NCBI GenBank assembly: GCA_021845685.1
Contig: JAJZVN010000019.1
Coordinates: 1 to 43,740 of the forward strand
Source of the DNA: a bacterium
Lineage (GTDB): Bacteria; SZUA-79; Acidulodesulfobacterales; Acidulodesulfobacteraceae
DNA: 43,740 nucleotides
Direction: 5' to 3'
Under the pieces are notes generated by a model. That model saw only the letters and a program-made list of their open reading frames with translations. It was not told the origin of the DNA and did not search any database. The position numbers and the translations under genes are program-made. Of the stretch, positions 127 to 11,733 are shown piece by piece. Position 1 is the stretch's first letter. The number at the start of each line of letters is the position of its first letter.

Positions 127-155
127 TTGACATTTAAATTTTAGTAATATATTAT
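127..155 (+). promoter_or_regulatory. Sigma-70-type promoter of the Hyf/Ehr operon
   Basis: A perfect -35 box TTGACA (127-132) is followed by a 17-bp spacer and a -10 box TATTAT (150-155). Transcription would start near 162, about 20 nt before the fluoride riboswitch aptamer. Position and spacing make this the likely promoter for the whole downstream operon. Confidence 0.7.
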
Positions 156-180
156 ATTTTTTATTATACTTTGTGATATA

Positions 181-254
181 AAAGCAATGGGGTTTTGCTT
201 ATAATGCCTTCGATTTAATATTTCCGCTTAAGTCTTTGGGCTGATGACTCCTAC
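181..254 (+). promoter_or_regulatory. Fluoride riboswitch (crcB motif) aptamer
   Basis: The stem-loop AAGCAATGGGGTTTTGCTT (182-200) matches the crcB-motif P1 with its AUGG...UU loop. It is followed by ATAATGCC (201-208). After a closed stem comes GGGCTGATGACTCCTAC (238-254), which matches the hallmark 3' half of the motif (GCUGAUGACUCCUAC). The middle stem is longer than usual: GCC (206-208) pairs with GGC, and GATTTAA (212-218) pairs with TTAAGTC (228-234). Fluoride riboswitches usually precede crcB/fluc or eriC-F fluoride exporters. Genes annotated as formate hydrogenlyase are among the reported associations (from memory), which fits the Hyf-like operon here. Confidence 0.85.
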
Positions 255-339
255 ATTATTAATTATTTTGTAATAATTTAAATATAAATTTAATTATTTA
301 AATTACTAAATTGTGTTTTTAAAATAATGTAGAATGAGG
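251..339 (+). promoter_or_regulatory. Probable riboswitch expression platform
   Basis: CTACATTATT (251-260), overlapping the aptamer 3' end, can pair with AATAATGTAG (323-332), a 10-bp stem. The right arm ends just before the likely ribosome-binding sequence GAGG (336-339) of the first gene, whose ATG is at 354. No U-run follows the stem, so translational control by exposing or blocking the start region is more likely than an intrinsic terminator. The pairing is visible in the sequence; the mechanism is inferred. Confidence 0.5.
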
Positions 340-353
340 TTTCAGTCTCCAAT

Positions 354-1313
354 ATGAATACCTATATAAATTCAACTGTTTTTCAAGTATTTCAGGTTAT
401 CACCGTTCTTGCATTTTCTCCTTTGATTTCAGGTTTTATTAACAAAGTTGAAGAAATTATTCAAGGTAAAAGAGGTCCTTCTATACTGCAGCCTTATTAT
501 GATATTTATAAACTATTTCATAAAGAAATTATAATTTCAAAAGATTCGTCTTTTGTTTTTCGTTTTGCTCCTTTTGTTTCCTTTATTTCGATGATACTTA
601 TCACTATGCTTATACCTGTTTTAACCGCATATCCTTTACCGCTTGGATTTATGGGCGATATGCTCGGCGGAGCTTTTTTGTTTTCGTTATCATCTTTTTT
701 TATAAATATTGCTTCGCTTGATAAAGGAACAAGTTATGGCGGGCTTGGGTCTTCAAGAGCGACGGTTCTTGCAATTCTTTCAGAGCCTACATTAATTTTA
801 GTGTTTGTAGGCGTTGCTTTAATTGCAAAATCAACTTTGCCTTATGTAATGCTGAATACGATAATTTCTCATTTGCCTTTATATTTCAGCCCATCCCATT
901 TTCTAATTATAGCAGCTTTTTTCCTTTTATTTCTTGCCGATACAGATAGAAGACCGATAAATGCTTCTACCCATGTTGAAATGAGCATGATTGAAGAAGC
1001 GCGCATACTGGATTATTCGGGACCTTATTTGGCGCTTCTTAAATGGAGCGGTTATATGAAGCAATTTTTATTGCTTGTTATTTTCTTAAATGTTCTGGTT
1101 TTTCCCTGGGGACTTGCAATAAATCATAGTCCGATATCGCTAATAATTGCAATTGCCGCTTTAATATTTAAAATGTTTATAATAGGCATAATTGCCGCTG
1201 TTATTGACACATCTATTTCAAGATTAAGATTTTTCAGATATCAGGAATATTTTGCCGCGGCTTTTGTATTAAGCGTATTAGCTATAATGACTTTTCAATA
1301 TAAAGGATTTTAA
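354..1313 (+). CDS. hyfC: Hydrogenase-4 / complex I NuoH-like membrane subunit (HyfC/HycD family)
   Basis: This 319-residue protein is highly hydrophobic, with about eight membrane segments. It carries HyfC/NuoH family signatures: KRGPSILQPYYDIYKL (39-54), a SEPTLILVF helix, a loop reading LADTDRRPINASTHVEMSMIEEA, and LKWSGYMKQF. In this family the subunit anchors the peripheral electron-transfer arm and forms the start of the ion path to the cofactor site. It is the first gene of a six-gene operon and is preceded by a fluoride riboswitch. Length and motifs agree with group 4 [NiFe]-hydrogenase and Ehr complexes. The acidic loop suggests an intact quinone- or cofactor-proximal channel. Confidence 0.88.
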   Translation: MNTYINSTVFQVFQVITVLAFSPLISGFINKVEEIIQGKRGPSILQPYYDIYKLFHKEIIISKDSSFVFRFAPFVSFISMILITMLIPVLTAYPLPLGFMGDMLGGAFLFSLSSFFINIASLDKGTSYGGLGSSRATVLAILSEPTLILVFVGVALIAKSTLPYVMLNTIISHLPLYFSPSHFLIIAAFFLLFLADTDRRPINASTHVEMSMIEEARILDYSGPYLALLKWSGYMKQFLLLVIFLNVLVFPWGLAINHSPISLIIAIAALIFKMFIIGIIAAVIDTSISRLRFFRYQEYFAAAFVLSVLAIMTFQYKGF

Positions 1314-1334
1314 AAATTAAGGGTATATTAAATC

Positions 1335-2009
1335 ATGCTGGGACTTGTGCTGCCTGTTTATTTAAATGTGACGATAGATTTATTGACAGCTTTCATACTT
1401 CTTTTGTCTTTTGTAATGTTAAGTTCAAAATGGATATCGTTTTATATTCATGCTTACGGCATCCAGTCTTTTTTAATTTTTATATTGACGCTGATTTTAG
1501 GCATAGAGACACATAGCGTTGATTTATATTTGGTTGCATTGTTGACATTAATAGTAAGGTGTTTGATAGTTCCCTATATGCTTTTAAATATGATGAAGAA
1601 GTTTAACATCAAAGAAGAAATAAATTTAAGCATAAAAATACCCGCTTCTATTATAACTGGGCTTGTATTGACTGTTTTCGGCTATTTTTTAATATTCAAG
1701 CTGATTCATAATTTTGTGCCTGATATAATTATTAATTCCGCAGCTATTGCTTTAAGTTTGGTCTTTATCGGTTTTTTTATGATTATTTCAAGATATACTA
1801 CTATAACCCAAATTTTAGGTTTGCTTGTGATTGAGAACGGTATTTTCTTATTTTCCGTTATATTAACGCCGACTTTGCCTTTAATAGTCGAATTAGTCGT
1901 TCTTTTTGATATTCTTGTTACGGTTGTTGCAATGTTAATTCTTTCAATGATAATGAAAATAAAAACAGGCTCATTTTCAACAGGTATGTTAAACAGATTA
2001 GTCGGATAA
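1335..2009 (+). CDS. hyfE: Hydrogenase-4 HyfE-like membrane subunit
   Basis: A 224-residue, strongly hydrophobic protein with about seven predicted membrane segments and very few charges. Length and order fit HyfE of hydrogenase-4 and Ehr complexes, whose C-terminal part resembles NuoK. It begins 21 nt after hyfC, consistent with co-transcription. No catalytic motif is expected; the family contributes to the membrane ion-translocating arm. The call rests on hydrophobicity pattern, length and operon position more than on sharp motifs. Confidence 0.78.
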   Translation: MLGLVLPVYLNVTIDLLTAFILLLSFVMLSSKWISFYIHAYGIQSFLIFILTLILGIETHSVDLYLVALLTLIVRCLIVPYMLLNMMKKFNIKEEINLSIKIPASIITGLVLTVFGYFLIFKLIHNFVPDIIINSAAIALSLVFIGFFMIISRYTTITQILGLLVIENGIFLFSVILTPTLPLIVELVVLFDILVTVVAMLILSMIMKIKTGSFSTGMLNRLVG

Positions 2010-2077
2010 GTTTAATAATAATAAGCAAAATTGTTTGTTCAGAACAAAATTTTAATGAAGGTATTTTATAATATCAT

Positions 2078-2141
2078 CATCATAACTATATTGATAATTA
2101 AATTTTATAACTAACATCATAACTATATTGATAATTAAATT
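2078..2141 (+). repeat. 27-bp direct repeat between hyfE and hyfF
   Basis: Two identical 27-nt copies beginning CATCATAACTATATTG lie at 2078-2104 and 2115-2141 (period 37). They occupy most of the hyfE-hyfF gap. They look like a recent tandem duplication in AT-rich spacer DNA. Confidence 0.85.
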
Positions 2142-2178
2142 ACAGGATAAATTAAAGTATATTTAGGATAGATAAATA

Positions 2179-3690
2179 ATGAAAATTATCGTATTAATTT
2201 TTTTATTGCTGCCTTTAATATCGGGTATAGCCGCTTTAATTTTTAGAAATAAAAGGTTTGCTGAATATATAACTTTTATTTCTTCAGCGGTTACTCTTGC
2301 GATTTCAATTTATTATTTATTATTTTTACTGCATTTTCATTCTATAACGTTTTTAAATAACGCAATAATTATTGATAAATTCAGCGCTTATATTATTTTA
2401 TTGGTAGCCGTTGTTTATTTTTTATCTTCAATGTATTCAATTTCATATATGAGGTCTGCAGTAAAAAACGAAGGGCTTACGGATAATGAGTTTTTTCGTT
2501 ATTACTTATTAATAAATTTATTTGCCCTTACTATGCTTGTTGCACCGATACTGAATAATATGGCGCTTTATTTAATTGATATAGAATTAACCACTGTAAC
2601 GAGTTCTTTTTTGGTTATAACCGAAATTACAGAAAAATCTATTGAAGCCGCATGGAAATATATTGTTATAGTTTCAAGCGGCATATCTATAGCACTATTA
2701 GGAACTGTATTGTTTTATTTAGCAGGAAATATTCATGGTATTCACCATGGTGTTTATAGCATGATATCTTCCTTAGACTGGACGGTTTTAAGCGCCCACG
2801 CTGCATTTTTAAATAAGGATTTGGTTAAAATAGCGTTTGTTTTAATAGTAATTGGTTTGGGCACTAAAGTTGGTCTTGCTCCAATGCACACATGGCTTCC
2901 GGATGCCCATTCCGAAGCTCCGGCTCCAATTTCAACCATGCTTTCGGCATCACTTTTAAATACCGCAATGTATGGCATAATGAGGTATTTTAATATTGCA
3001 GGTAAAAATCTGGGATTTAACTATCCGCAGGAGATAATGATTATAATTGGTCTTTTTACGATATTTATCGGAGTAATGGGAATTATTAATCAAAAGACGA
3101 CAAAAAGGCTTTTTGCATATTCAAGCATTGAGCATATGGGCATTATCAGTTTAGGTTTTGGACTTGGCGGCATCTTTGGAACATTCGGCGCCCTTTTTCA
3201 AATGTTGGCGCATAGTTTATCAAAACCTATAATGTTTTACGGTTCCGGAAATTTGCTGCATAAATATAAAACAAAAGATATTAAAGCTATAAAAGGTGTT
3301 ATCTACACTATGCCTAAAACTGCTTTTCTGTATGTCGCGGGAGCCTTAACGCTTGTAGGCGCTCCGCCGTCAGCCGTGTTTATAGGCGAGTTTATGATAC
3401 TCCTTGAAAGTTTTAAAAGAAGCGATTATCTTATATCAATTATATTAATAATATTATTAATATCCGCTTTTATTGCAATATTGGCTAAGATAAATTCGAT
3501 GATTTTTGGGGTCTCAAAAGATGAAAGCATATATGATATAAATAATTTAAAAATCACAAGAGGCGATTTTGGTATAGCTTCACTAATGCCTATGGCAGTT
3601 CCTTTAATATTGACTATCTTTTTAGGATTGTATATTCCGTCGCCTTTAAAATCTTTTTTAAATGGAATAGTAAGAATAATAATTAAATAA
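2179..3690 (+). CDS. hyfF: Proton-translocating antiporter-like subunit HyfF (NuoL/M/N family)
   Basis: 503 residues, about 13-14 membrane helices. The conserved antiporter features are present: Glu136 in the TM5-like helix (LIDIELTTVTS), Lys230 and His237 in GLGTKVGLAPMHTWLPDAH, and KRLFAYSSIEHMG in the following half. This family moves protons or sodium in complex I, Mrp antiporters and group 4 hydrogenases. It sits between the HyfE-like gene and the large subunit gene. Retention of the key Glu and Lys suggests ion pumping is still active although the redox active site of the partner subunit has changed. Confidence 0.9.
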   Translation: MKIIVLIFLLLPLISGIAALIFRNKRFAEYITFISSAVTLAISIYYLLFLLHFHSITFLNNAIIIDKFSAYIILLVAVVYFLSSMYSISYMRSAVKNEGLTDNEFFRYYLLINLFALTMLVAPILNNMALYLIDIELTTVTSSFLVITEITEKSIEAAWKYIVIVSSGISIALLGTVLFYLAGNIHGIHHGVYSMISSLDWTVLSAHAAFLNKDLVKIAFVLIVIGLGTKVGLAPMHTWLPDAHSEAPAPISTMLSASLLNTAMYGIMRYFNIAGKNLGFNYPQEIMIIIGLFTIFIGVMGIINQKTTKRLFAYSSIEHMGIISLGFGLGGIFGTFGALFQMLAHSLSKPIMFYGSGNLLHKYKTKDIKAIKGVIYTMPKTAFLYVAGALTLVGAPPSAVFIGEFMILLESFKRSDYLISIILIILLISAFIAILAKINSMIFGVSKDESIYDINNLKITRGDFGIASLMPMAVPLILTIFLGLYIPSPLKSFLNGIVRIIIK

Positions 3691-3715
3691 AAAAATAAAA
3701 TAACAAAATTATCAG

Positions 3716-5143
3716 GTGCAAAGAGTGTTTAAAAAATTTCTCGGGGATTATGAATTTATCTGGGGTCCTGTTAAAAAAGGCGTATGCGAATCTTCCTATT
3801 ATCACTTTTTAACTTCAAGCGAAGAACTCCATGAGCTTGATATCACGTTGGGATATAAAACAAGAAATGCGATAAAAATAGCAAAAGAGAAAAATAATTT
3901 ATATGAACAGATTTTAGTTATCGAAAGGATTGCAGGAATGCACGCATTTTCTGCTTCCTTAAGCTATTGTCTTGCAGTTGAAGACTATTTTGATTTGACT
4001 GATAAAATACCTGAATATATTAAATTAATAAGAATGTTTTTTGCAGAATTAGAAAGACTTAGGAATCATGTGGAAAATTTATCCGAAATATCAGGTTCGA
4101 CGTATTTAGAGGTGCCGTCTTCGTTGTATGCCTATTATGCAGAAAAAATAAAACAAATTTCATCGGAGGTTAATTTTTCAAGATATCTTATGGGAATCAA
4201 CACGGTAGGAGGTATAAGATTAAATAATTTAAATTATCATATTGACCGTATCGACGGAGCTATTAATACTCATACTAATGCCGATATCAATACCAATCAT
4301 GATATAAATATTAATATTGCTGCCGATCTGGATACTAACGCTAACATTAATTCTAATTTTAACACTGCTAATACTAATAAACATAATGAGGACATTTTAA
4401 AAGGCTTTGAATATATAATTAAAGAAATAAGCTTATATATTGATAATATTGAAAAAATTATCAAGCAAAATTCAGAAACTAAATCGCATATCGACAGATT
4501 AAAAACAACGGGGAAAATTAATTTAAAAATTGCCGAAAAATTTCATGCGGAAGGAATAGTCGCTAAAAGTGTGGGTATTAATAAAGATTTAAGATTAAAA
4601 TATCCTTATTTATCATATAAAGATATTAAATTAGAGTCCGCATCATATAACGACGGGGACGCTCTTTCAAGATATTTAATCAGAATTGCGGAAACAAGAC
4701 AATCTTTTAACATTATTAAAATTTGTTTTAAAAAATTGGCAAAAAATTTTCACGATAATATATTCAATTCAATAGAAAATTCATATTCAAGTTTAAATTC
4801 AAGTTCAGATTTAAATTTAAAAGAACAAAATAAAAATGAAATAGATGATAATGATAAACAATTTTTCAATGAAAATTTTAAAAATAAAAACAATTTTTAT
4901 GAATTAAATGCCGCCGCGCATAGAAATAATAAATACGGCTTTGGTTTTTCGGAATCTTCAGAAGGGCCTATATTTTGTATAGTGGGTGGATTTAACGGCA
5001 AAGTTTTTAAAAAATTAAATATTAAATATCCTTTTGACAATAATTATAAGATATTTAGCTATTTTACTAAAAATACTATGATGATGGATTTTAATATAAA
5101 TGAAACAAGTTATAATTTTTCGGTAGCGGCATGCGATAAATAA
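3716..5143 (+). CDS. hyfG: Hydrogenase large-subunit-like protein without NiFe ligands (HyfG/NuoD family, Ehr type)
   Basis: 475 residues, with the GTG at 3716 chosen as start because it is the first in-frame start after hyfF (25-nt gap). The N-terminal 37 residues resemble the HyfG/NuoC-type linker region, and the large-subunit fold follows. The usual ERxCGxC site reads E70-R-I-A73-G-M-H76, so both cysteines are replaced. At the C-terminus the CxxC pair is reduced to V470-A-A-C473. NiFe binding is therefore not expected. NuoD likewise lacks these cysteines. Residues about 183-224 form an Asn/Asp/Ile/Thr-rich insertion and about 360-405 a second Asn/Lys-rich stretch. The gene clusters with hyfC/E/F/B, so this is the catalytic-position subunit of an Ehr-like complex whose substrate is unknown. 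Confidence 0.82.
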   Translation: MQRVFKKFLGDYEFIWGPVKKGVCESSYYHFLTSSEELHELDITLGYKTRNAIKIAKEKNNLYEQILVIERIAGMHAFSASLSYCLAVEDYFDLTDKIPEYIKLIRMFFAELERLRNHVENLSEISGSTYLEVPSSLYAYYAEKIKQISSEVNFSRYLMGINTVGGIRLNNLNYHIDRIDGAINTHTNADINTNHDININIAADLDTNANINSNFNTANTNKHNEDILKGFEYIIKEISLYIDNIEKIIKQNSETKSHIDRLKTTGKINLKIAEKFHAEGIVAKSVGINKDLRLKYPYLSYKDIKLESASYNDGDALSRYLIRIAETRQSFNIIKICFKKLAKNFHDNIFNSIENSYSSLNSSSDLNLKEQNKNEIDDNDKQFFNENFKNKNNFYELNAAAHRNNKYGFGFSESSEGPIFCIVGGFNGKVFKKLNIKYPFDNNYKIFSYFTKNTMMMDFNINETSYNFSVAACDK

Positions 5144-5342
5144 TATTAAATAATATCAATAAATAATTATAAATATTTTTTATATTAGCAGTATAAATAA
5201 TATAAATAGAATAATATTCATGAAATATAAAATTTATTAATAACAATTATTAACAGCATTAATAATGACGGTAATAAAAATAAAATAGTTTGATAAATAT
5301 TATAATATAAACATCACAATTAATAATAAGAGCGAAATAATT

Positions 5343-6533
5343 ATGGCGATATGGACATTTGATGGATTAAGATTCGGTGTAAAATCGGTAGAATTTCCTA
5401 AAGAAAACGATTTTTATGAGGGTTTTTATTCGTATATAAAATTTGATGCCGATAAATGCTTAAATTCTATAAAAAATGACGAAGACACTTTAGACAAAAA
5501 TAATGCTTTAAATAAAGATAACGATAACTTATCAAAATTAAAATGTTCAAAATGTCGGGAAATATGTCCAACGTCGGCTATCGATTTATCGGGTTATTAT
5601 AAAGATAAAGATATAAACAATAAAGATATTGATAGGATTAAATATAATAATGGTGAGATAAATAAAAATATTAATAGCAATAAATATAATAATAATAAAG
5701 ATATAAATAAAGATATTGATAGCATTAAATATAATAATATTAAATATAATAATAATGATGACAATAATATAAATGATATAAATGGTAATGACAATATAAC
5801 TGTAAATATTTCTGATGCAAGTATTAATAATGCAAATATTAATATTATTGATATAAAAAAATGTATATATTGCGGTTTATGCGTTTCTGAATGTTTGAAT
5901 ATATCAAAAGCAATCAGTTTTGGCAATTATATAGACAAAGATAATATTAGCAGCGATATTATAAACAATTTAAAGTTTAATGCTTTTATTGAAAATTTTA
6001 ATAAAGGTAAAAATAACAAAAACAAAGACAATGAAGAAAATAAAAATAATAAAGATAAAAAAAATGATTCAGGCAATAATTTTAGCAATAGTAATATAAA
6101 TAAAAAAAAATTTAATTTTTTTAAAAAGTCGTTATTTGTAAAGCATATTGATACAGGTTCTTGCGGAGCATGCGAATCGGAAATAATAGCTTTAAACAAT
6201 CCCTATTATAATATGCATAGATTGGGGATATTTATAACTCCGAGTCCGAGATTTGCCGATGTAATTTTATTAACGGGAGTTTTTACGGATAAAATGTCGG
6301 ATATTTTTTACAATGTATTGGATAATACTCCAAAACCGAGATTTATTCTGCTTGCAGGCGCATGTCCTCTTTCAGGAGGAATTTACAGCGAATGCAGCCC
6401 CGGTTTTTTAAAATATAAAAGCAACGGAGATATTTTGAAATCAGAAAATATAGTGTTGGTGCCGGGATGTCCGCCAAATCCTTTTATGATATTAAATGCT
6501 TTATTATTTATAAAAGCCGGTGCTTTAATATAA
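5343..6533 (+). CDS. hyfI: Fused HyfH-HyfI protein: diferredoxin domain plus NuoB-like small subunit
   Basis: 396 residues joining two normally separate subunits. The N-terminal part (about 30-190) is a HyfH/NuoI-like ferredoxin region. Cluster 1 ligands are C39, C68, C71 and C75, with an Asn/Asp-rich insertion between the first and second Cys. Cluster 2 is regular (C174, C177, C180, C184). About 90 residues of Asn/Lys/Asp repeats separate the clusters, and a second such spacer covers 215-258. The C-terminal 265-396 is HyfI/NuoB-like with all four N2-cluster ligands: C274 and C277 (GSCGACE), C341 (GACPLSGG) and C376 (PGCPPNP). It should pass electrons from a ferredoxin-like donor to the large subunit. 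The 199-nt gap before it is AT-rich and holds no gene. Confidence 0.85.
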   Translation: MAIWTFDGLRFGVKSVEFPKENDFYEGFYSYIKFDADKCLNSIKNDEDTLDKNNALNKDNDNLSKLKCSKCREICPTSAIDLSGYYKDKDINNKDIDRIKYNNGEINKNINSNKYNNNKDINKDIDSIKYNNIKYNNNDDNNINDINGNDNITVNISDASINNANINIIDIKKCIYCGLCVSECLNISKAISFGNYIDKDNISSDIINNLKFNAFIENFNKGKNNKNKDNEENKNNKDKKNDSGNNFSNSNINKKKFNFFKKSLFVKHIDTGSCGACESEIIALNNPYYNMHRLGIFITPSPRFADVILLTGVFTDKMSDIFYNVLDNTPKPRFILLAGACPLSGGIYSECSPGFLKYKSNGDILKSENIVLVPGCPPNPFMILNALLFIKAGALI

Positions 6534-6598
6534 TTTAATTTAATATAATGCAACTATATTTATATTTATAAATTGTTTTTAGAGCCTTAGGAGCAGTC

Positions 6599-8815
6599 AT
6601 GTATTTTTTATATTATTATTTGTTTTTATTTTTTTCAATTACAGGGATTATTCTTTCGTTTTCAGGGATGATTTCTAAAAAATTTAGCAAAGCTTATATT
6701 GCCGGGAATATTTCATATATGGCAGCGTCCTTATTTGCCGTTATATTTGCGTTATCCTTTTTTATAAAGCCTCTTGCGGATTTTGCTAATTATTATAATA
6801 ACGCAAGCGGCAGTCATGACATTTTATTCAGTATCGGCAAATATTTTCCCGCAGGTAATATATTAATGTGTTTGGATCCGTTAAGCGCGTTTTTTATTTT
6901 ATTTTCTTTTGCCGTATTTTTTTATATTTCTTTATATCAGATAAAATATATTGAAAAATTTGAGGAAAAGATTAATCCTTCAAATTTTACTTTTTTATTC
7001 GGCATTATGCTTTTAAGTGTTTACTTTACTTTGCTTTCATTTAACGCTTTTATTTTTATGATAAGCTGGGAAGTAATGGCTGTGTCTTCTTATCTCCTTG
7101 TTCTTGGAAAACATTATATTAAAGGCACTGTTAAAGCTAGTTTTTTAATGTCGACGATTATGGAATTCGGCGGAATGTTTATAATGGCAGCCATTATGCT
7201 TTTATATGTTCATTCAGGTAATTTTAATTTATTTGATATGAAAGATATTATTATTTCTCCTGCTCTTAAAGAAGTTATATTTTTATTATTTTTATTTGGT
7301 TTTGGAGCAAAAGTAGGTATAGTTCCTCTGCATATATGGCTTCCTGAAGCTCATCCTGCTTCTTTATCCGGAGTTTCCGCAATCTTAAGCGGAGTTCTAA
7401 CTTCTGCAGGCATTTATGGTTTAATGCGATTCGGTCTTTATATTTTACATCCCGTAAATACGGCTTTATTTTTAGGCACGGTAGTAATTATCATAGCGGT
7501 GCTAACAATGTTTTTCGGGGTATTATATATGGCGCAGACTCATGATTTAAAAGTTCTGCTTTCTTACTCCACCGTTGAAAATATGGGACTTATTTTAACA
7601 GGTATAGGAGCGTCTTTATACTACAGATATTTTAATCTTGACGGTCTTGCCGCATTAGCATTATTAGCTTCTTTATACGCCTTAATAAATCATGCTTTTT
7701 TTAAAAGTCTTCTTTTTATGGGTGCAGGCAATATAGAATATCAAACAGACAGCCATGATATGGATAAATTTGGAGGATTATTGCATGCTATGCCGCTGAC
7801 GGGAGTTTTAGCTTTTATCGGAGTAATGGCTGCTGCGGCAATGCCGCCTTTAAACGGATTTGTTTCGGAATGGCTTAATATAGAAGTAGTTTTCTTAGGT
7901 TTTAATATACACAGTGTACTGCCGAGGATAATGCTTTTCTCCGCAGGCGCTATTTTAGCTTTGAGCGCGGCTATGGCAATAGCTAATTATGTTAAGCTTT
8001 ATGGGATAACTTTTTTAAGTTCCGCAAGATCAAAAAAAGCAATGAAAGCAAAAGAAGTTCCTCTGTTAATGAATATCGCAATTTTAATTCCCGTACTTCT
8101 GAGTATTTCTTTATCTGCTTTTATGTTTTTTTATACGCCTTTTATGTCCGAGGTGTCAAATTTGATTTATCATATAAATATAAGCGATAAAATAATGCAT
8201 AACTATATTTTTATTCCTTATTATAATACTTTTTCAGCGTCGAGTCCCGTCTATCTATTTTTTGTTTCAATCATTCTGATAATTATTTTATATTTGATTT
8301 ATCGTTTTATCGTAAAACCCAAAAAAAGATATGTGAAATTAGCCTGGATTGGAGGAACGGAAAGTTTAAATCCTCATGCGCAAATTTCTGCTTTAGGTTT
8401 TTCAAATGCAATAAGAATAATGTTTAATATTGTTTATAAATCGCGAAAAAGAATTGAGGCAAGAAAAATAAGAATTTTAAGTAACGGTGAAGAAATGCCT
8501 GCAGGCAAAGAGAGCTATATCTTAAAAACGCATACAAAAACCCAAAATTTATCGGTAAATGAAGAAAATATTGATGATTTTACGAAATCAGATGGGAATA
8601 TCCCTAATCCGTTTCCGTATTCTTCATTCTATCATGATTCAAGCGGGTATGGTTCTTATATATTTCCATTATTAGAATATTATTTGTATTTGCCTGTAAT
8701 TAAATTTTTTAACAGGTTAAGCAATATTTTTTCAAAATTGCAAAATGGTTCTTTAAATTTATATATATTTTATATATTTATTGTATTTTTAATAGCGCTG
8801 ATTGTTGCAAGATGA
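6599..8815 (+). CDS. hyfB: Antiporter-like subunit HyfB (NuoL family)
   Basis: 738 residues with about 16 membrane helices. Antiporter motifs include Glu158 (ISWEVMAVSSYLL), Lys238 and His245 in FGAKVGIVPLHIWLPEAH, and LLSYSTVENMG. The C-terminal 150 residues after about 570 form a soluble stretch and a last helix, as in HyfB/HycC proteins. GGAG at 6590-6593 precedes the ATG at 6599. It is the last gene of the Hyf/Ehr operon and gives the complex a second ion-translocating module beside HyfF. An inverted-repeat element follows it. Confidence 0.9.
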   Translation: MYFLYYYLFLFFSITGIILSFSGMISKKFSKAYIAGNISYMAASLFAVIFALSFFIKPLADFANYYNNASGSHDILFSIGKYFPAGNILMCLDPLSAFFILFSFAVFFYISLYQIKYIEKFEEKINPSNFTFLFGIMLLSVYFTLLSFNAFIFMISWEVMAVSSYLLVLGKHYIKGTVKASFLMSTIMEFGGMFIMAAIMLLYVHSGNFNLFDMKDIIISPALKEVIFLLFLFGFGAKVGIVPLHIWLPEAHPASLSGVSAILSGVLTSAGIYGLMRFGLYILHPVNTALFLGTVVIIIAVLTMFFGVLYMAQTHDLKVLLSYSTVENMGLILTGIGASLYYRYFNLDGLAALALLASLYALINHAFFKSLLFMGAGNIEYQTDSHDMDKFGGLLHAMPLTGVLAFIGVMAAAAMPPLNGFVSEWLNIEVVFLGFNIHSVLPRIMLFSAGAILALSAAMAIANYVKLYGITFLSSARSKKAMKAKEVPLLMNIAILIPVLLSISLSAFMFFYTPFMSEVSNLIYHINISDKIMHNYIFIPYYNTFSASSPVYLFFVSIILIIILYLIYRFIVKPKKRYVKLAWIGGTESLNPHAQISALGFSNAIRIMFNIVYKSRKRIEARKIRILSNGEEMPAGKESYILKTHTKTQNLSVNEENIDDFTKSDGNIPNPFPYSSFYHDSSGYGSYIFPLLEYYLYLPVIKFFNRLSNIFSKLQNGSLNLYIFYIFIVFLIALIVAR

Positions 8816-9096: not shown

Positions 9097-10242
9097 TTAT
9101 AATGTCAATTTATAATATATATCTTTAATTTCTTTATTCTTCAAATCTCTTTTAAGTTTTATAGATTCTTGCCTTATAATTTCTAACAAAGCTCTTGATT
9201 CCGCATCGCTTATAATTATTCCTAATTTTTTCAATTTATATTTAATAACCGATGTACCGCTGTGTTTTCCTATTAATAATTTTCGTTTAAGTCCTACTTC
9301 TTCAGGAGGGTACGGTTCATAATTTATTGGATTTTTAATAATGCCGTCCGTATGAATACCTGCTTCATGATGAAAAATATTTCTTCCTAGAATCGGCTTA
9401 TTAACCGGAATAGGTCTTTTAGTAATTTTTGCTATAATAGATGCAAGTTTTTTTACTTTTTTAAAATCAAAATCAATATTTTTTTTTTCAATAAACTTAA
9501 AGTAGGCTATGACTTCTTCTAATGCGCAATTCCCCGTTCTTTCTCCTATTCCCGTAATGCTTCCTGAAACATAATCGGCTCCGGCTTTCAAAGCTGCTAC
9601 GGAATTTCCAGTTGCCATGCCTAAATCGTTATGAGCGTGTATTTCAATTGCTATTTGTTTGAATTTAGATTTTATGAATTTTATATTTTTATAGATATCA
9701 AGCGGATTTAAAATTCCTACCGTATCCGAATATCGATATTTATAAGCCCCTTCGCCTTCAGCAATGTTTATAATTTCATATAAAATATTTTTATCTGCTC
9801 TTGAAGAATCTTCTCCTCCTATAGAAAATGCAATCTGTTCTTTTCTTAAAACCCTGCAAACATCTATTAACGTATTTTTAATATAACCAAAATCCTTATT
9901 TAATTTATATTTTATATGTATATCGGATATAGGAATAGAAATATGTATATATTGAACCCCTATATCAAGAGATGCTTTTATATCTTCAATATTAGCCCTA
10001 TTCCATGAAATAATTTTTGCGTTTAAACCTGAAGAATTAATAGTTTTTATAGCATTTTTTTCTTCCCCGCCCATTATAGGAATGCCAGCTTCAATTTCAT
10101 TGACGCCTATTTCATCAAGCATTTTTGCTATGAGTATTTTTTCGTTATAAGAAAAGATAACGCCTGCAGTTTGCTCCCCGTCTCTGAGTGTAGTATCGTT
10201 TATTAAAAAATTGCAATTTTTTTTATTATTTAACTTAATCAT
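9097..10242 (-). CDS. nifV: Homocitrate synthase NifV
   Basis: 381 residues of the isopropylmalate/homocitrate synthase (DRE-TIM) family. The active-site signature DTTLRDGEQTAGV lies near residues 16-28, the metal site HAHNDLGMATGNS in the middle, and GNCALEEVI and IFHHEAGIHTDGI follow. It makes homocitrate, the organic ligand of FeMo-cofactor, from 2-oxoglutarate and acetyl-CoA. It is divergent from nifH, with a sigma-54 promoter at 10395-10410 on its own strand. The length matches free-standing NifV. LeuA is the main alternative, but the nif context and shortness favour NifV. Confidence 0.93.
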   Translation of the reverse strand: MIKLNNKKNCNFLINDTTLRDGEQTAGVIFSYNEKILIAKMLDEIGVNEIEAGIPIMGGEEKNAIKTINSSGLNAKIISWNRANIEDIKASLDIGVQYIHISIPISDIHIKYKLNKDFGYIKNTLIDVCRVLRKEQIAFSIGGEDSSRADKNILYEIINIAEGEGAYKYRYSDTVGILNPLDIYKNIKFIKSKFKQIAIEIHAHNDLGMATGNSVAALKAGADYVSGSITGIGERTGNCALEEVIAYFKFIEKKNIDFDFKKVKKLASIIAKITKRPIPVNKPILGRNIFHHEAGIHTDGIIKNPINYEPYPPEEVGLKRKLLIGKHSGTSVIKYKLKKLGIIISDAESRALLEIIRQESIKLKRDLKNKEIKDIYYKLTL

Positions 10243-10394
10243 ATTATTATTTTATTTATTTAGTTTTATTATTTATTACCTAACTCAACTTCATCATTGC
10301 AAGCGCGTTTTCGCAGGAAAGTTTAATGTTGTCAGACATCAGTTTAAAAATTAGTTTAATTTACTCTTATTAATAATTTATCAGTATTAAAATA

Positions 10395-10410
10395 AGCATA
10401 AAATATGCCA
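10395..10410 (-). promoter_or_regulatory. Sigma-54 (-24/-12) promoter for nifV
   Basis: On the minus strand this reads TGGCATATTTTATGCT, with GG and GC at the exact sigma-54 spacing (GG-N10-GC). It closely resembles the nifH-side promoter at 10733. Transcription would start near 10384, leaving a leader of about 140 nt before the nifV ATG. Confidence 0.65.
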
Positions 10411-10424
10411 AAAATTATTTTGTA

Positions 10425-10440
10425 TGTTTACATTTAAACA
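10425..10440. promoter_or_regulatory. NifA-type upstream activator site (TGT-N10-ACA)
   Basis: TGTTTACATTTAAACA is a perfect TGT-N10-ACA site with extended symmetry (TGTTTA/TAAACA). It sits only about 15 bp upstream of the nifV sigma-54 promoter and about 290 bp upstream of the nifH one. A NifA-like activator looping to either promoter is plausible. Another dyad-binding regulator is possible because the site is unusually close to the nifV promoter. The rest of 10243-10860 is AT-rich spacer with no gene seen. Confidence 0.5.
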
Positions 10441-10732
10441 ATAGTTTAATTAATTTTTAAATAAAAATAAAAATCAGAAAAAATAACTTATATAAATTGA
10501 TTATATAAATAATTATGTGCTATGTATCGCAATAAAACATTGGTATAAAATTAATCAATAAAATTTTTTTTGTATAAATATTAGGCATTTTTTTTTTATT
10601 AAACTTATAAAAGTCGTAATGTTTTTGTTTTTTTAATTAATATTTAATTTTATTTAATTATGAAATATATCATTGTTATTAGTTATGAAATTTATATTAA
10701 TTTTATTATTAAATTTATATTAATTTTTTATC

Positions 10733-10748
10733 TGGCATAATTTATGCA
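10733..10748 (+). promoter_or_regulatory. Sigma-54 (-24/-12) promoter for the nifH operon
   Basis: TGGCATAATTTATGCA has GG and GC separated by exactly 10 nt, as sigma-54 promoters require. Transcription would begin near 10759, about 100 nt before the nifH ATG, which has the ribosome-binding sequence GGAGGT at 10847-10852. Confidence 0.75.
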
Positions 10749-10854
10749 TTATAAATAGCGAATAAGATTTAGACAAAGAATATATTTATATAATCAGCAT
10801 AATTTTTAACGCATAATAAAATAAAAAATTAATTATTATTATTTTTGGAGGTAA

Positions 10855-11733
<879 letters not shown>

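Follow-up and report, generated by a model that had tools for sequence, protein, structure and literature searches.

Why a fluoride riboswitch should precede an operon resembling hydrogenase-4 and formate hydrogenlyase (FHL) is the question raised by the stretch of DNA analysed here, an entire contig of 43,740 nt (G000:C23, hereafter the window) from a 3.04 Mb, 96% complete genome of the order Acidulodesulfobacterales. Its closest named relative is Candidatus Acididesulfobacter diazotrophicus (HyfC 98% identical). crcB RNAs have been linked to formate hydrogen lyase since 2010 (PMC2864571) and again in 2024, when a fermentative explanation was given (PMC11139923), which confirms an association named in an earlier interpretation made from the letters alone (the sequence-only reading). 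Judged by its ligand residues, the riboswitch-linked "formate hydrogenlyase" is, at least in the clade described below, a predicted fluoride-responsive Ehr-type complex and not an FHL. This assignment appears to be new: no paper joining fluoride riboswitches to Ehr complexes was found in the literature searched, most subscription papers lying outside that search, so that absence is not proven. We further consider it probable (roughly 0.7) that the operon encodes a dedicated fluoride-resistance ion transporter complex.

Riboswitch and expression platform

The regulatory features upstream of the operon are the following.

127..155, + strand: sigma-70-like promoter, TTGACA-N17-TATTAT
174..260, + strand: fluoride riboswitch aptamer (crcB RNA, RF01734; cmscan E=1.2e-6)
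238..260, + strand: 3' half of the aptamer, left arm of an alternative hairpin, paired with 323-348 in the minimum free energy (MFE) fold (shuffle p<0.005)
323..348, + strand: right arm covering the ribosome-binding site (RBS) (AATAATGTAG..GAGG..TCAGTCT), predicted OFF state (MFE fold, shuffles)

A search of the upstream region with the RF01734 covariance model gave a match above the gathering threshold of the family (36.5 vs 34 bits), at a position that the sequence-only reading had placed, correctly to within a few bases, at 181-254. The aptamer ends ca. 94 nt 5' of the six genes, and is both the sole Rfam match within the window and the only fluoride riboswitch in its genome. The promoter, previously called good, matches the consensus at 11 of 12 positions and is the top site of a 10 kb scan; since promoter-like sites in that scan total no more than expected by chance (78 vs 69.7, sd 9.3), its support comes from its position and quality.

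A translational platform had also been put forward and gains support from the predicted folds. The duplex between 238-260 and 323-348 covers the GAGG of the RBS and outscores 200 of 200 shuffled RBS segments. For the complete untranslated region (UTR), the fold is only moderately better than those of dinucleotide shuffles (z -1.73). An RBS-covering pairing at p<=0.01 (single-base shuffles) occurs in 13 of the 15 UTRs of the order. This alternative pairing fits a translational ON switch, in which fluoride would stabilise the aptamer and the RBS would be freed.

Ligands and clade of the complex

The operon has the gene order hyfC-hyfE-hyfF-hyfG-HI-hyfB (C-E-F-G-HI-B, where HI is a Fer4+NuoB fusion), and the six genes of a membrane complex named in the sequence-only reading are borne out by domain matches.

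354..1313, + strand: hyfC, NuoH/HycD-like membrane subunit, 319 aa (PF00146, 109.7 bits)
1335..2009, + strand: hyfE-like membrane subunit, 224 aa (NF008556, hydrogenase 4 membrane subunit, 64.6 bits, under the cut-off of 136)
2179..3690, + strand: hyfF, antiporter-like subunit, 503 aa (PF00361, 160 bits; NF005044, 392 bits)
3716..5143, + strand: hyfG, large subunit with low-complexity inserts, 475 aa (PF00346, 85 bits)
5343..6533, + strand: ferredoxin-like domain (two Fer4) fused to the hyfI/NuoB small subunit, 396 aa (PF01058, 62.5 bits)
6599..8815, + strand: hyfB, antiporter-like subunit and last gene of the operon, 738 aa (PF00361, 148 bits)

For the subunits, the highest-scoring models are those of hydrogenase-4 and FHL, with scores under the equivalog cut-offs. 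In E. coli, HyfG and HycE both show the motifs CGIC and CYSC; at the position of the first, the window HyfG reads IAGMH, while the C-terminal CYSC is missing (the C-terminus being NFSVAACDK) and no CxxC is found elsewhere. All four Ni-Fe cysteines are therefore absent, where the sequence-only reading had only most of them lost. The AF2 model of this protein (mean pLDDT 80) matches the FHL subunit HycE (7z0s_E) and the 49 kDa subunit of complex I. Among the 63 homologous HyfG read, two of which are cut by contig ends, none has the motif pair, a single stray CKEC being found in that of locus L148. The two CxxC motifs that define membership of [NiFe] group 4 and FHL are thus lacking in the window and in all 63 homologues, and what is found instead, group-4-like subunits without Ni-Fe ligands together with antiporter-like subunits, is the pattern of Ehr complexes. 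Because the Ni-Fe ligands are gone while the fold and the N2 and Fer4 motifs are kept, the product of the window operon is, on this pattern of residues, a non-hydrogenase Ehr-type complex in the sense of PMC6349859; the absence of the motif pair from all 63 large subunits likewise indicates that the label "formate hydrogenlyase" is wrong for this clade.

The iron-sulfur ligands have a more varied history. The HI fusion of the window has four N2 cysteines (Cys 274, 277, 341 and 376) and two Fer4 motifs, and four N2 cysteines are present in 44 of the 62 HyfI read, 43 of these 44 belonging to the fluoride clade (the HyfI of L107 is truncated by a contig end). Fourteen loci have at most one N2 cysteine and no Fer4 motif in HyfI, and the operon is kept in all of them; their aptamer is recovered by a covariance model in 13 cases and is visible by eye in the last (L128). 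Intermediate states occur in L120, which has lost N2 and kept Fer4, and in L117 and L119, in which two N2 cysteines are lost and a separate small Fer4 protein is kept. N2 cysteines have been lost in no fewer than three distinct regions of the HyfC tree. The HyfI of L136 still scores 73 bits to PF01058, and that of L157, with one cysteine, has the NuoB fold in its AF2 model, its nearest structures being the MBH and FHL small subunits. Such reading of sequences covers recognisable ligands; cofactors may still be held by other ligands.

In the antiporter-like subunits, the glutamate of transmembrane helix 5 (TM5), the lysine of TM7 and the glutamate of TM12 are conserved. The TM8 lysine of HyfB occurs in none of the 63 clade members and is present in E. 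coli HyfB and HycC and in a second operon of the window genome. In the window itself, HyfB, whose nearest solved chain is FHL HycC (7z0s_C), lacks this lysine, and HyfF retains the TM5 glutamate and TM7 lysine with an asparagine at the TM8 position. Asn/Asp/Lys-rich low-complexity inserts, shorter or absent in relatives, break up both the HI fusion and HyfG.

The aptamer-bearing loci share the order with hyfB last. As controls, hyfB-first operons were taken from Cupriavidus, Variovorax, Rhodococcus, Methylocalor, Methylovirgula, Ciceribacter, the window genome (its second operon) and E. coli (hyf), together with E. coli hyc. No credible aptamer was found beside these operons, the one partial match (E 0.16) lying inside the Methylovirgula hyfB; all controls except those of E. 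coli are also Ehr-like, having no Ni-Fe motif pair. The hyfB-last plasmid operons of Caballeronia and Mycobacterium branderi carry upstream aptamers. The HyfC tree splits the hyfB-last from the hyfB-first operons at 100/100, a first tree having given 98/64 for the clade before additional outgroups raised its support. Since the hyfB-first operons examined lack the aptamer and the tree separates the two groups, the fluoride link, as far as gene order and phylogeny can tell, belongs to one Ehr clade and not to Ehr complexes generally. Residues S43, P47 and Y49 of HyfC were considered as marks of the clade and dropped: some hyfB-first operons have S43 and P47, and the riboswitch-bearing operon L252 has neither S43 nor Y49.

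The second Ehr-like operon of the window genome (L104, contig G000:C60, 4672-15592) has hyfB first, no riboswitch and a large subunit without Ni-Fe motifs. Two genes are inserted between its hyfF and hyfG, and presumably resemble those of molybdenum-storage (MosA/MosB-type) proteins.

Distribution and the relation to CrcB

In the order of the window, sampled through 30 genomes, the riboswitch was detected at E<=0.001 in 18 genomes. In 17 of these the riboswitch immediately precedes a hyfC homologue (68-100% identity across the sequence available), and in the other (G027) it precedes crcB. One further operon has a weaker aptamer (G005, 26.4 bits), and in G022 the contig ends at hyfC, so that the upstream DNA is missing. 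Operons of relatives devoid of the aptamer, which the sequence-only reading had named as evidence against itself, were looked for and not found: every operon of the order with its upstream DNA present has an aptamer, and in Ca. Acididesulfobacter and its kin the pairing is kept in all cases open to checking.

The window genome has no CrcB (PF02537), and the operon subunits match other families. Across the order, the operon occurs in 19 genomes and CrcB in 8, and the two are nearly exclusive (1 genome with both, 18 with hyf only, 7 with crcB only and 4 with neither; Fisher p=0.0011). The sole overlap is G023, a genome 59% complete, and its acceptance as a true double carrier was rejected because the 6 kb contig holding its crcB shares 97-99% identity with the contig of G013, another species, making contamination or transfer likelier. 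Without G023 the exclusion reaches p=0.0002, and within one genus holding both types the figures are 0/7 vs 6/8 (p=0.007). A hidden exporter of the CLC-F kind was likewise rejected for the order, in which the 20 CLC proteins read are all of the GREGP type and none has CLC-F signatures, that of the window genome reading GSGGSGGREGP in place of GNNLI/GMGLI and GREGT/V. In G012, a genome free of the hyf operon, a nifV-like gene and nifH are separated by a crcB-DUF190 pair (L097, 382-3821); the window has the same nifV-like gene, flanked by the hyf operon on its opposite side (9097-11733).

Beyond the order, 84,980 species genomes were scanned with a HyfC alignment, and 79 loci were picked on protein similarity alone. 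With a covariance model built from Rfam-found aptamers, 68 of the 79 were found to have an aptamer in the 1 kb preceding hyfC, at a median distance of ca. 60 nt; two of the loci begin at or just before hyfC, and at the outgroup-like L182 no aptamer adjoins the operon. Rfam alone placed 10 of 18 loci tested above gathering directly upstream, the L178 aptamer being found by Rfam below gathering (31.7 bits) and the motifs of L174 and L128 by eye; regular-expression scans missed many true aptamers found by Rfam. Carriers include Archaea (Thermococcus, Archaeoglobaceae, Thermoplasmata, Micrarchaeota and Nitrososphaerota) and Bacteria (Actinomycetota, Chloroflexota, Acidobacteriota, Campylobacterota, Thermotogota, Bacteroidota and Pseudomonadota), two of them being cultured, Castellaniella caeni and Eoetvoesiella caeni. 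In 19 genomes of Desulfurellales, the complex occurs in 17, the riboswitch in 17 and CrcB in none. In several genomes no fluoride riboswitch was found other than that of hyf.

Neighbouring genes, named from their translations, include several linked to other fluoride riboswitches. These precede enolase in L136, phosphoglycerate mutase and citrate synthase in L139, MutS-like proteins in L119, L149 and L154, and an MFS transporter in L127; in Castellaniella a pyrophosphatase gene follows hyfB. A second hyfB-like, antiporter-type gene stands under its own fluoride riboswitch in L119 (17454-19908). Dynamin-like GTPases are a recurrent partner of fluoride riboswitches or the hyf operon: they lie behind fluoride riboswitches in Desulfurellales (L212, L221, L224-L228 and L230), beside one in L127, and, in part of the window's order, just 3' of hyfB (L112 at 17492, L123 at 17280 and L111 at 12370). 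Finally, the M. branderi plasmid pJCM12687 (L255, 506259-525140) contains a fluoride island in which several fluoride aptamers accompany the hyf operon and genes for a MutS-like protein, UspA, a histidine phosphatase, enolase and a DUF190 protein.

Function and comparison with known systems

We propose that fluoride binding to the aptamer would free the RBS and switch on translation of a complex-I-like, non-hydrogenase membrane complex of the Ehr kind, whose antiporter-like subunits would move ions and ease the effects of HF entry. The likeliest working step would be a proton-coupled ion transport lowering cytoplasmic fluoride or acid. In this order the complex may stand in for the passive channel Fluc/CrcB, as the near-exclusive gene distribution suggests. 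The Fluc channel needs an outside-positive membrane potential (PMC11139923), while acidophiles reportedly have an inside-positive one and take in a flood of HF at low pH (PMC12831704), which is probably why Fluc is replaced; a proton-coupled exporter would work at such a potential. That the complex exports F- directly is a tentative step beyond this. Equally tentative is the idea of a fluoride exporter of a third class: a redox pump of the complex-I type turned into a proton-coupled F- transporter, which would have lost first its Ni-Fe site and then, in several lineages, all Fe-S ligands, leaving a peripheral arm without redox centre. Regarding the roles earlier suggested, one in ion, acid or fluoride homeostasis is favoured by the pairing across phyla, the near-exclusion of CrcB in the order and the fluoride-stress neighbours (enolase, pyrophosphatase, MutS), whereas retention of the operon in several lineages devoid of any recognisable Fe-S or Ni-Fe ligand speaks against fluoride-linked redox chemistry.

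Several observations weigh against a fluoride-resistance transporter. The window complex retains its N2 and Fer4 cysteines and may still be redox-driven. The genomes sampled in the order are kin to each other and so not independent. No recognisable aptamer was found at five Nitrososphaerota loci. Of 50 genomes outside the order, 16 have both CrcB and the complex, so that strict replacement of CrcB everywhere was rejected, and the reading for CLC-F in Desulfurellales covered 20 of about 80 CLC matches. The five Nitrososphaerota loci (L129, L131, L135, L141 and L167) have a hyfB-last operon, and a diverged aptamer or another control is possible there.

The alternative that survives best, although we hold it to be clearly short of an even chance, is a redox-driven pump for protons (or Na+), in which electrons from reduced ferredoxin would pass through Fer4 to N2 and protons would be expelled, repairing the pH and the proton-motive force after HF entry with fluoride itself untouched. 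The ligands of the window and of the 44 HyfI with a full N2 set are those it requires, the conserved charged residues of the antiporter subunits suit it, and Na+/H+ antiporters are the next commonest riboswitch targets after exporters (PMC11139923). Such a pump would however leave unexplained the 14 loci with neither Fer4 nor more than one N2 cysteine, where the operon persists and, with one exception, a model-found riboswitch too; no partner reductase or dehydrogenase gene is found in the operon, and a substitute exporter accounts for the near-exclusion of CrcB in the order better than a helper would. A true FHL or hydrogenase, serving a fermentative shift under fluoride stress, is the published annotation reading and agrees with the best-scoring models and with formate hydrogen lyase being among the common targets of fluoride riboswitches (PMC2864571, PMC11139923); we regard it as very improbable given the absence of the Ni-Fe ligand pair, the scores under equivalog cut-offs and the lack of a formate dehydrogenase among the six genes. 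Hardly credible at all is a chance or relic pairing, with a riboswitch inherited from a neighbouring fluoride gene and irrelevant to the complex, since some operons do lie within islands of several fluoride riboswitches but the aptamer's short distance from hyfC at most protein-selected loci, the kept RBS-covering pairing and the aptamer-free hyfB-first operons all speak against it.

Ehr complexes are widespread and without assigned function, their advantage being described as unknown in a review of ammonia-oxidising archaea (PMC10432482). The fluoride link offers a testable role for the hyfB-last clade and corrects an annotation. If the fluoride-resistance reading is true, it would explain how acidophiles cope with HF where a passive fluoride channel should fail, and the members free of redox ligands would offer a natural way of testing which coupling parts of complex I run without electron transfer.

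Among known systems, Fluc/CrcB and CLC-F share with the complex the control by fluoride riboswitches, and CrcB its near-exclusive distribution in this order; the proteins are unrelated, the complex has six subunits and its F- transport is only inferred. E. coli hydrogenase-4 (Hyf) and FHL (Hyc) have in common with it the subunits C, E, F, G, I and B and the folds of the large and small subunits, but the fluoride clade differs in its gene order and lacks CGIC/CYSC, HyfA, HyfD and HyfJ as well as the HyfB TM8 lysine. The resemblance of HyfB to MrpA/MrpD recalls the Mrp multisubunit cation/H+ antiporters, and the cofactor-free members of the clade would also have to work without electron transfer; unlike Mrp, the complex keeps a peripheral arm of HyfC, HyfG and HyfI. 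Closest are the Ehr complexes, which have group-4-hydrogenase subunits without Ni-Fe ligands, antiporter-like subunits and, in many members, the N2 cluster (PMC6349859, PMC10432482), and for which redox chemistry coupled to charge translocation has been proposed in the literature. By their missing ligands, the cofactor-free relatives argue against such coupling for the clade, though the window complex may still have it. From Ehr complexes the fluoride-clade operon is set apart by members without any recognisable Fe-S ligand, by hyfB standing last and not first, by its upstream fluoride aptamer and by a tree group of its own.

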